Positions 17,481 through 20,427 of a stretch of DNA of 45,106 nt are shown here, piece by piece; position 1 is the first letter of the stretch, and each line of letters opens with the position of its first letter. The translations under genes and the position numbers were made by a program. Source of the stretch: Gammaproteobacteria bacterium. Lineage in GTDB: Bacteria > Pseudomonadota > Gammaproteobacteria > GCA-001735895. The stretch covers positions 1 through 45,106 of the forward strand of contig JANTFI010000008.1 of NCBI GenBank assembly GCA_024763505.1, read 5' to 3'. The notes under the pieces were generated by a model. It searched no databases and had not been told where the DNA came from. It worked only from the letters and a program-made list of their open reading frames with translations.

Positions 17481-17597
<117 letters not shown>

Positions 17598-17737
17598 AAT
17601 GCGATTAGCCGGCACAGGCCGGATCAAAATCGAATGCGGATAGTACTGTTTGTCGGCAGAAAATGAAAGACGGCTTTCGCTTGTTTTGCAAACTATTTGC
17701 CGTGACAATACGCGCTTTCAGTTTTCAGCCAGCCATC

Positions 17738-18214
17738 ATGGGTAAAAAGAAGCCATCCAAAACACCGGATAACACGATCGCAAGAAACAAATCGGCCCGC
17801 TTCGAATATTTTATCGAAGAAACGCTGGAAGTCGGTATTGCGCTGGAAGGCTGGGAAGTCAAGGCATTGCGCGCCAAAAAGGTCCAGATCAACGAGAGTT
17901 ATGTATTCGTCAAGAATGGTGAATTGTGGCTTTCGGGCGTGCATATCACCCCGCTGACATCGGCCTCGACCCATATCAAACCCGACCCGACCCGGATCCG
18001 CAAACTGCTCGCGCATCGCCATGAAATCGATCGCATCACCGGGCTGGTCGAGCGTAAGGGTTATACCCTGATTGCACTGTCGATGTACTGGAGCCGCGGC
18101 CGCGCCAAGGTCAGCATCGGTATTGCCAAGGGCAAGAAACTGCGCGACAAGCGCGCGACCCAGAAAGACCGTGACTGGTCACGCGACAAGGCGCGTATGC
18201 TGAAATCTCGATAA
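17738..18214 (+). CDS. smpB: SsrA-binding protein SmpB
   Basis: Binds tmRNA and delivers it to stalled ribosomes for trans-translation, 158 aa. I use the ATG at 17738 ([11 protein letters not shown]), because the 25 extra residues of the longer frame are not family-like. The conserved run is [20 protein letters not shown], then [27 protein letters not shown], and the C-terminal basic tail [17 protein letters not shown] that enters the decoding centre. It is divergent from the SRP RNA. The tmRNA gene is not in the window. Confidence 0.97.
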
Positions 18215-18254: not shown

Positions 18255-18635
18255 TTAATATTCCACCACTTCAAATTCGATGCCATCCGGGTCGTAAAAA
18301 TAGAAACGCCGACCCGGTTCGTAATTGCCATGATTGAACGCCGTCAACCCTTCTGCCTTGACGCGTTGCTCGATTTCGTCGAGATCTTCCACCTGCAGCG
18401 CGACATGATTGAATGACCCCGGCACAGTGGCCGACCCCGTGGCACCGCTCTCTGTTTTTTTCGGAGTGTAGAGAGCGAGATATTGTTGGTCGTCACCGAC
18501 ATGCACGGTTTTTCCACCATTCATTGCATCGCCCTGCCAACGAATATGCCAGTCGAAAATACGGCTTAGCAAGGCGGCTCGTTGCTGCGGATCGCTGACG
18601 GTCAGGTTGACGTGTTCCAGATGATTGCGCGACAT
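18255..18635 (-). CDS. VOC/glyoxalase-superfamily protein
   Basis: A 126-aa vicinal-oxygen-chelate protein with two beta-alpha-beta-beta-beta modules. Likely metal ligands are the His in HLEHVNLTVSD near the N-terminus, the His in FNHVALQVEDLDE in the middle, and the Glu in FYDPDGIEFEVVEY at the end. Substrate unknown; family members include glyoxalases, dioxygenases and antibiotic-resistance proteins. It is divergent from soxR and its promoter has the long spacer and dyad of SoxR-activated promoters, so a role in redox-cycling compound or electrophile resistance is a reasonable inference. Confidence 0.88.
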   Translation of the reverse strand: MSRNHLEHVNLTVSDPQQRAALLSRIFDWHIRWQGDAMNGGKTVHVGDDQQYLALYTPKKTESGATGSATVPGSFNHVALQVEDLDEIEQRVKAEGLTAFNHGNYEPGRRFYFYDPDGIEFEVVEY

Positions 18636-18667
18636 GATTTTCTCCGTTTGTTGTGAAAGGAGTGGCC

Positions 18668-18698
18668 ATGCTAATATCTAAACCTTACTTGAGGTCAA
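18668..18698 (-). promoter_or_regulatory. SoxR-type promoter of the VOC gene
   Basis: On the minus strand: -35 TTGACC (18698-18693), a 19-bp spacer, and -10 TAGCAT (18673-18668). The over-long spacer is the hallmark of MerR/SoxR-activated promoters. The spacer starts within ACCTCAAGT, identical to the left half of the known SoxR box, and CTCAAGTAAGGTTTAG has dyad symmetry (CTnAA-N6-TTnAG). A GGAG ribosome-binding site and the ATG follow at 18635. Confidence 0.7.
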
Positions 18699-18723
18699 GA
18701 TTAAATTTTACCGTTATTCTGCC

Positions 18724-19194
18724 ATGCCTGAACTGAACTCACTGACTATCGGCCAGGTCGCGAAACGCACCGGACTGGCAATTTCTACCATCCGTTTTTA
18801 CGAATCGCAACGATTGGTGCAGCCAACCCGAAACAGCGCCGGGCATCGGCGATTCCGCTCTTCGGATATCCGCCGATTATCTTTTGTGATGATTACCCAG
18901 CAACTGGGGTTTACGCTGGAAGAGATTCGCGCACGTTTGCAGGCGTTACCGGATGGACGTACACCGACCAGGGCGGACTGGGCCAGAATCAGCCGGGCAT
19001 TTCGCGATGAATTGAGCCGTCGCATCGAAATCATGAGCCGGATGCGCGAGCGGCTGGATGGCTGTATCGGTTGTGGTTGCCTGTCGTTAAAGAAATGCAG
19101 TCTGTATAATCCGCAAGACCAGGTTGCCCGCTCCGGGCCTGGGCCGCGTTTTTTGCTGGAGGACAAACCGGATGGTTCAACCTCGTCATCCTGA
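18724..19194 (+). CDS. soxR: Redox-sensitive MerR-family activator SoxR
   Basis: A 156-aa transcription activator. The N-terminal MerR winged helix (LTIGQVAKRTGLAISTIRFYE, residues 7-27) is followed by a dimerisation helix. The [2Fe-2S] ligands are C114, C117, C119 and C125 in CIGCGCLSLKKC, the exact SoxR spacing. It responds to redox-cycling compounds by cluster oxidation. It is divergent from the VOC gene with an 88-bp shared region; no soxS gene is nearby, which fits the usual non-enteric pattern in which SoxR directly controls a few genes. Confidence 0.95.
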   Translation: MPELNSLTIGQVAKRTGLAISTIRFYESQRLVQPTRNSAGHRRFRSSDIRRLSFVMITQQLGFTLEEIRARLQALPDGRTPTRADWARISRAFRDELSRRIEIMSRMRERLDGCIGCGCLSLKKCSLYNPQDQVARSGPGPRFLLEDKPDGSTSSS

Positions 19195-19198
19195 AGGA

Positions 19199-19408
19199 TC
19201 AGTTTTCAGCGTCTGACAGAGCTGCAGTCGGCAGACGACGGTCTTTCACGACGCCACGGCGATCGATGCGCTTGCGCCGGTATTCGCCATTGTAAAGAGG
19301 GTTAAAGCCGCCCCGCCGTTCGCTGCGCAACCGACGATCAATCTTGCGCCGGCGCTCCGCCACTGCCTGCTTCGATAAAGGGTCTACTTTCTGGTGATTG
19401 TGGGTCAT
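19199..19408 (-). CDS. Small Arg-rich hypothetical protein
   Basis: A 69-aa very basic protein (start ATG at 19408; a TTG 12 nt upstream is possible). It has repeated Arg-Arg motifs: ERRRKIDRRLRSERR and YRRKRIDRRGVVKDRR. No membrane segment or signal. It is convergent with soxR (4 bp between stops) and upstream of nothing obvious. The composition suggests nucleic-acid or phosphate binding, but I do not recognise a family. Confidence 0.5.
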   Translation of the reverse strand: MTHNHQKVDPLSKQAVAERRRKIDRRLRSERRGGFNPLYNGEYRRKRIDRRGVVKDRRLPTAALSDAEN

Positions 19409-19497: not shown

Positions 19498-20427
19498 TTA
19501 CACCCGCTGGTTACCGTGGTACAGGGTGACCACATGGCGGGCTTCGGCGAAGAACAACCAGCGTTCAACAAAGACGCCAATAAATGCCAGCACCAGAAGC
19601 ACCATCAGGCTGTCAAATTCGAGGTTATAGGCGAGCAAGGTACCCGGAATCAGAAATGCAGCCAGATAGACGACCCAGCGCAGCAGCAAAATCTTGAAGC
19701 GCGCTACCTGATAACCGAATTCATCAGTCAGAAAGGTACCGGAGGTGTGACCGACATCGAACAGCCGCACAGTGGCACGGGTAAAAGCGGTGGCGGTATT
19801 GATGCTCGGGCCATGCGGTTTACCGATCCAGAAGTAATACATAATCTTGAGGATGCCGGCGGTAGCAATCAGGCCGATATTGATGATCAGCATTTGATCG
19901 ATCGGCAAGCCGTAATACAGACGCAACAGGGTCAGCAGCAAGCTGCCCAGCATCAAGCCGAGCATGATGTAATTGGCCGGAACCAGCGAAGTGTTCCACT
20001 GCGGAATTGTCTTCAGGCTAGCATACAGCATACCGGTGGCGAAGTTGACTGCGATCGAACCGGCAAACAGCAAGAAGGTCAGCACCAGCGTGACAACATT
20101 ACTCATGCTGCTATCGAGATACCATTGCAGCAGCCACAGCGCAGCCATCGGATAAAAACTCACGGCCAGCACCGCTTCGCGCGATAACCACGAGGTGCGA
20201 AAGCGGCTCATCGAACGCCAGGCATTCTTCGGGTTGGCCAGATGCAGACTGGACGACATCAACCCGATGGTGATCAGAATCATCGCCAGCGTGCCGCTGA
20301 CCAATACCTGATCATGATCCAGGCCGCCGTCGATCTTGAACAGCATGCTCAGGGTGACCAGGGCCATCAGCCCATAACCGGCGCCGGAGACGACGGTAAA
20401 AAATATCACTGAAATTGCAGGATGCAT
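19498..20427 (-). CDS. soeC: DmsC-type membrane anchor, probable SoeC subunit of sulfite dehydrogenase
   Basis: A 309-aa inner-membrane quinone-reactive subunit with about eight hydrophobic helices. The N-terminus MHPAISVIFFTVVSGAGYGLM and the LHLANPKNAWRSMSRFRTSWLSREA loop are typical of DmsC/SoeC anchors. GTFLTDEFGYQVAR and FVERWLFFAEARHVVTLYHG follow near the C-terminus. It is the third gene of soeA-soeB-soeC, 157 bp behind soeB, with hairpins in the gap. It would pass electrons between the iron-sulfur subunit and the quinone pool. Confidence 0.82.
   Translation of the reverse strand: MHPAISVIFFTVVSGAGYGLMALVTLSMLFKIDGGLDHDQVLVSGTLAMILITIGLMSSSLHLANPKNAWRSMSRFRTSWLSREAVLAVSFYPMAALWLLQWYLDSSMSNVVTLVLTFLLFAGSIAVNFATGMLYASLKTIPQWNTSLVPANYIMLGLMLGSLLLTLLRLYYGLPIDQMLIINIGLIATAGILKIMYYFWIGKPHGPSINTATAFTRATVRLFDVGHTSGTFLTDEFGYQVARFKILLLRWVVYLAAFLIPGTLLAYNLEFDSLMVLLVLAFIGVFVERWLFFAEARHVVTLYHGNQRV

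Follow-up and report, generated by a model that had tools for sequence, protein, structure and literature searches.

A predicted SoxR box in the promoter of a VOC-superfamily gene divergent from soxR is conserved across orthologous loci

The intergenic region between a VOC-superfamily gene and a divergently transcribed soxR gene in a gammaproteobacterial contig (the window, a stretch of 45,106 nucleotides analyzed at full length) very probably contains a SoxR operator, with the VOC gene as a direct SoxR target, as judged from its sequence and that of its relatives. The case for this putative site is made by conservation, beyond what the single sequence could offer: the box and its −35 element recur at the same place before VOC orthologues in two proteobacterial classes.

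Organization of the VOC-soxR locus

The genes run in the order smpB, VOC and soxR, with the last two divergent and separated by 88 bases (Table 1). The sequence-only reading had placed the site next to soxR, and the neighboring gene is indeed recognized as such: its product scores 177.8 bits against the TIGR01950 cut-off of 116.9, it carries the four-cysteine [2Fe-2S] motif CxxCxCxxxxxC as CIGCGCLSLKKC, and its best PDB match is the solved SoxR structure 2zhg (E 1.8e-36). The predicted identity of this protein as SoxR is thus firm. The VOC protein is single-domain, and its PF00903 score compares with a gathering score of 20.6.

Table 1. Coordinates of the VOC-soxR intergenic features in the window
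Feature	Position	Strand	Evidence
126-aa gene of the VOC superfamily, proposed as a direct target of SoxR	18255..18635	-	PF00903 47.9 bits; 19-sequence alignment
CGGAGAA, resembling a ribosome-binding site, before the VOC ATG	18640..18646	-	Read off the sequence
VOC-promoter hexamer TAGCAT, -10-like	18668..18673	-	Hexamer begins with TA in 35 of 42 loci; A at second position in 42 of 42
Predicted SoxR box CCTCAAGTAAGGTTTAGA	18677..18694	-	Box score and matrix; shares 2 bases with the -35
-35 TTGACC of the VOC promoter	18693..18698	-	TT(G/T)A kept in 42 of 42 loci
soxR, 156 aa	18724..19194	+	TIGR01950 E 9.1e-53; cluster motif CIGCGCLSLKKC at residues 114-125

Other features surround the pair. 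A bacterial small SRP RNA (RF00169, 68.7 bits; 17490-17586, minus strand) lies between smpB and an open reading frame that is dnaX-like as named by eye. The mechanically called start of the smpB frame (17663-18214, plus strand) is probably too early, and the ATG at 17738 (MGKKKPSK...) is likelier, since the family match begins only at residue 29. Just downstream of soxR is a short arginine-rich open frame of about 69 aa (19199-19408, minus strand) containing RRKIDRRLRSERR and RRKRIDRR. At locus L006 the pair again adjoins a membrane-protein gene resembling, as judged by eye, the window neighbor at 19498-20427, and no third gene recurs beside the pair in the gene lists of 19 plus three loci, also judged by eye.

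A predicted SoxR-type promoter upstream of the VOC gene

The minus-strand sequence of the promoter region is CTTGACCTCAAGTAAGGTTTAGATATTAGCATG, and the TTGACC and TAGCAT elements reported in the sequence-only reading are present on that strand with a spacer of exactly 19 bp, most of which is filled by the box CCTCAAGTAAGGTTTAGA. A box between the −35 and −10 elements with a 19-bp spacer is the arrangement of SoxR-type target promoters. The −10 element ends 32 nt from the VOC ATG (18635), and the box lies 29 nt from the soxR ATG (18724). The −10 hexamer agrees with the consensus at only four of six positions, and a consensus sigma-70 promoter scan finds nothing at the VOC promoter because it permits only 16- to 18-bp spacers.

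The exact SoxR-box half-site described earlier is also confirmed, as ACCTCAAGT, with the opposite half, GGTTTAGA, being degenerate, such that the site agrees with 12 of 16 box positions. Relative to the full dyad CCTCAAGTTAACTTGAGG, the left half is exact and the right half degenerate, with GGTTTAG or GGTTGAG right halves found in other orthologues. The GGTTTAG right half of the window is shared with loci L022, L024, L026, and L097, and its degenerate half is therefore within natural variation.

The strength of the site depends on how it is searched for. When the 250 bp upstream are shuffled 200 times with dinucleotides preserved, the window score of 12 is never reached, and the palindrome alone, allowed up to three mismatches in the whole genome, gives 35 sites compared with 37 for a reversed-pattern control. 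This palindrome-only scan is uninformative, and the window site is by itself modest. With the orthologue-derived pattern TTGACCTNAAGTNNNNTTNAG, which includes the −35, there is one exact match in the 3.08-Mb genome, namely the window site, and a matrix built without the window scores that site at 44.9, the second-ranked site in the 45 kb reaching 3.0. When the 41 other orthologue loci are left out one by one, the same matrix gives scores of 21.1 to 48.4. The best of the other fetched candidates (L071) scores 15.1, under the orthologue minimum of 21.1, and those from the palindrome search (L108-L113) score below zero.

Apart from the window site, no site in the genome has fewer than two mismatches to TTGACCTNAAGTNNNNTTNAG, and the runners-up have exactly two. 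A single-target SoxR regulon is likely in this genome, rather than proven, as the assembly is about 91% complete.

Conservation across orthologue loci

The comparison includes 42 orthologue loci, the window and 41 others. Two come from the window's family (57 genomes), 16 are among 40 loci from a species collection, 10 are new in a sample of 369 genomes of the window's class, and 13 are new from a second class, assumed to be that of Monaibacterium marinum, of which 385 genomes were searched. Orthologues were separated from more distant VOC loci at a gap in both E-value and identity, and rows duplicating a genome were dropped (L101, same genome as L032; L083 and L084, same genomes as L006 and L007). 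Two additional loci, L105 and L106, were counted apart from the 42 and have matrix scores of 38.3 and 39.3; a third plasmid hit, H2, was left out.

A TT(G/T)A start is present at a constant offset before the box in all 42 loci, and the box scores at least 11/16 in 41 of them, the exception being L097, with a score of 10, a value reached by 72 of 200 shuffles. The hexamer at the 19-bp position does not begin with TA in seven of the 42. Presence of the box before VOC orthologues had been proposed in advance as a check on the SoxR assignment, and it bears the assignment out: the 41 loci other than the window all have TT(G/T)A, and 40 have a box of at least 11/16. The pattern was first suggested by 19 loci, and the next 10 to be fetched all fit; the 13 second-class loci were also fetched after the pattern had been seen. 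No box of at least 11/16 is found in the 32 more distant VOC loci that were scored (of 33, with L011 dropped for having no VOC match). A chance origin, in which one palindrome half-site happens to accompany a weak promoter, would account for the palindrome-only counts of 35 and 37, but it is extremely improbable given the retention of the site at an equivalent position in every one of the 42 orthologue loci versus none of 32 distant ones, and the gulf between the matrix scores of the window site and its nearest competitor.

The box faces the VOC gene

A shared intergenic region invites the question of which gene the box serves. The box is close to soxR, and soxR genes lacking a VOC partner have boxes beside divergent neighbors annotated as MFS transporter, HPP family, flavodoxin, or SDR (found with the same matrix), so that the site could serve soxR autoregulation alone with the VOC gene as a bystander. 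This is very improbable, however, because the 42 loci all have a −35 that faces VOC, and none has one that faces soxR, and because VOC adjacency holds across two classes. Moreover, although soxR is divergent and next to VOC in 36 of the 42 loci, the six without a divergent soxR (L021, L027, L032, L081, L091, and L094) all keep the box before VOC; in the first five, soxR is absent from the fetched locus and present elsewhere in the genome, and in L094 it adjoins VOC but is convergent. Since the box occurs before VOC without a divergent soxR, and beside other soxR partners, it appears to track SoxR regulation, and here it faces VOC. Direct control is also expected because no SoxS-sized AraC-family protein is found in the genome, the two AraC-domain matches belonging to open reading frames 1332 and 459 aa long.

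Several SoxR loci have other arrangements. At L057 (1489-2605), a SoxR of the VOC-linked group is transcribed divergently from a gene that, named by eye, resembles a flavin reductase and has a SoxR box of its own, and the VOC gene of that genome (L021) is at another locus. Within the window's family, soxR genes of genus g3 that lack VOC (L085-L090) have a variant box, TTGACTT(A/C)AAGT..., alongside. The SoxR at L120, encoded in the genome that also carries the L081 VOC, is unusual in its cluster motif, CMRCGCLSLEHC; no box is present inside the fetched locus, yet the VOC box in the same genome (L081) is a perfect palindrome.

Association of the VOC and SoxR lineages

In a SoxR tree, all 39 VOC-linked SoxRs are in one 40-member group (support 99/94), and the fortieth member is the SoxR of a genome whose VOC sits at another locus. 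VOC and SoxR distances are correlated (r 0.65, 28 pairs), with none of 2000 permutations as high; both this correlation and the tree grouping are partly expected from species relatedness. The pair is sparsely distributed close to the window: among seven other genomes of its own genus, none has a VOC orthologue and none has soxR (E 1e-25 or better), and among 40 relatives searched for soxR, all three genomes with a VOC orthologue have it. VOC and soxR behave together as a module of two genes, one that is frequently lost.

The VOC protein

The VOC fold is predicted with a mean pLDDT of 85.4, with residues 63-73 being poor. Fold matches at Z 11.4-14.1 are to GloA, FosX/FosA, the ChaP oxidases, and the drug-binding TnmS and bleomycin proteins, although identity to GloA, FosA/FosX, ChaP, and TnmS is only about 12-26%. 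Residues H8, H77, and E122 are invariant in all 33 VOC sequences, these being from the 33 of 44 loci at which VOC was extracted automatically. GloA has four metal ligands (His, Glu, His, and Glu), and hhalign pairs H77 and E122 with GloA H74 and E122; together with H8, these are presumably the candidate metal ligands of the VOC protein. The GloA metal-binding Glu, which we take to be E56, corresponds to A54 when placed by eye in a stretch that hhalign does not cover, and this position is Ala in 32 of 33 sequences and Ser in one.

That the VOC protein is glyoxalase I, or a fosfomycin enzyme of the FosA type, under SoxR control is very improbable, and both are rejected as family assignments. FosA and GloA models are the best NCBIfam matches of the VOC protein, and the fold resembles both enzymes, but the scores are far under the curated cut-offs (26.8 bits vs 180 for FosA; 23.2 vs 165 for GloA). 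It falls below every curated GloA and Fos cut-off tested, and the Ala at the presumed position of the GloA metal Glu may also count against a glyoxalase. A site of three residues, His-His-Glu, would fit an enzyme of the Fos or dioxygenase type.

A non-catalytic drug-binding protein that acts by sequestration, like the bleomycin- or tiancimycin-binding VOC proteins, is a rather unlikely alternative: the fold comparison also matches TnmS3, TioX, and bleomycin-binding proteins (Z 11.6-12.9), but the invariance of H8, H77, and E122 suggests a metal site over pure binding. Our tentative reading, held at a little under even confidence, is that the VOC protein acts on a small molecule that is redox-active or electrophilic, either by binding it or by changing it chemically, and probably does so with a metal on H8, H77, and E122.

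Proposed mechanism and significance

By analogy with studied SoxR systems, we infer that SoxR binds the window site, activates VOC, and represses its own gene. SoxR would sit between the TTGACC −35 and the TAGCAT −10, whose 19-bp separation would be too long for ordinary promoter use, and reduced SoxR would keep this overlong promoter off, as at E. coli soxS and Stenotrophomonas maltophilia mfsA. Oxidation of the SoxR [2Fe-2S] cluster by a redox-active molecule would cause SoxR to twist the DNA, enabling RNA polymerase to initiate towards VOC. The same bound dimer, just upstream of soxR, probably also limits soxR expression. A link between the VOC protein and redox-cycler or electrophile resistance, raised in the sequence-only reading, can be reasonably inferred from SoxR biology. 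More speculatively, and doubtful at present, SoxR could be a dedicated one-target switch that senses a redox-active antibiotic or quinone and induces just one VOC enzyme, a metal-dependent one, which would destroy or oxidize compounds of the same class, a sense-and-degrade pair kept in Alpha- and Gammaproteobacteria.

An uncharacterized VOC clade in two proteobacterial classes would thereby gain a regulator, and hence an inducing signal, making its role in chemical defense testable. Because one member of the clade comes from a named strain, Ruegeria sp. TM1040 (soxR, TM1040_RS04190; VOC, TM1040_RS04195), the VOC role can be tested directly with redox cyclers. The arrangement also supports the view that non-enteric SoxR governs proteins that handle small molecules, and not a general stress response.

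Comparison with known systems

In the literature searched, most subscription papers excepted, no paper was found in which SoxR is described as controlling a VOC or glyoxalase gene. The 'soxR/soxS' names in Ruegeria pomeroyi presumably denote a sulfur-oxidation cluster. Several reports were considered as precedents and set aside, as far as the accessible portions of each describe them: the R. pomeroyi genes over their naming (PMC9769926); the Sphingomonas glyoxalase Swit_3298, which is given no SoxR link (PMC4219479); a Shewanella lactoylglutathione lyase, which is controlled by a different regulator, AzrR (PMC3223726); a Caballeronia study in which 'VOC family' appears only once, for a catechol dioxygenase with no tie to SoxR (PMC13210998); and Paraburkholderia SoxR, with no VOC target (PMC8859910).

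Among VOC proteins, GloA, FosA/FosX, ChaP, and TnmS are like the window protein in fold and in the candidate ligands H8, H77, and E122, and differ from it in their low identity and in curated cut-offs that it misses in every case tested. At the E. coli soxS-soxR locus, the box is between the −35 and −10 of the divergent target and a single site serves both genes, resembling the placement within the target promoter proposed here; the E. coli target is the regulator SoxS, whereas the proposed target in the window is a VOC gene. Streptomyces coelicolor SoxR directly activates a few small-molecule-modifying enzymes, a similar class of direct target, although no VOC protein is named among them in the accessible parts of that report (PMC4146615).

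The closest parallel is S. maltophilia mfsA-soxR, for which the available text of PMC4411124, which also quotes the E. coli soxS-soxR box consensus, describes a proven SoxR promoter (TTGACC, 19 bp, CATGCT) divergent from soxR, with transcription starts and SoxR binding mapped and the same box also repressing soxR. Like the window, it has a divergent target and soxR, a TTGACC −35, a 19-bp spacer, and one shared box; unlike the window, its target is an MFS efflux pump and its box is a better palindrome. As far as the literature searched shows, the VOC gene is thus a previously undescribed partner in an already known type of promoter.
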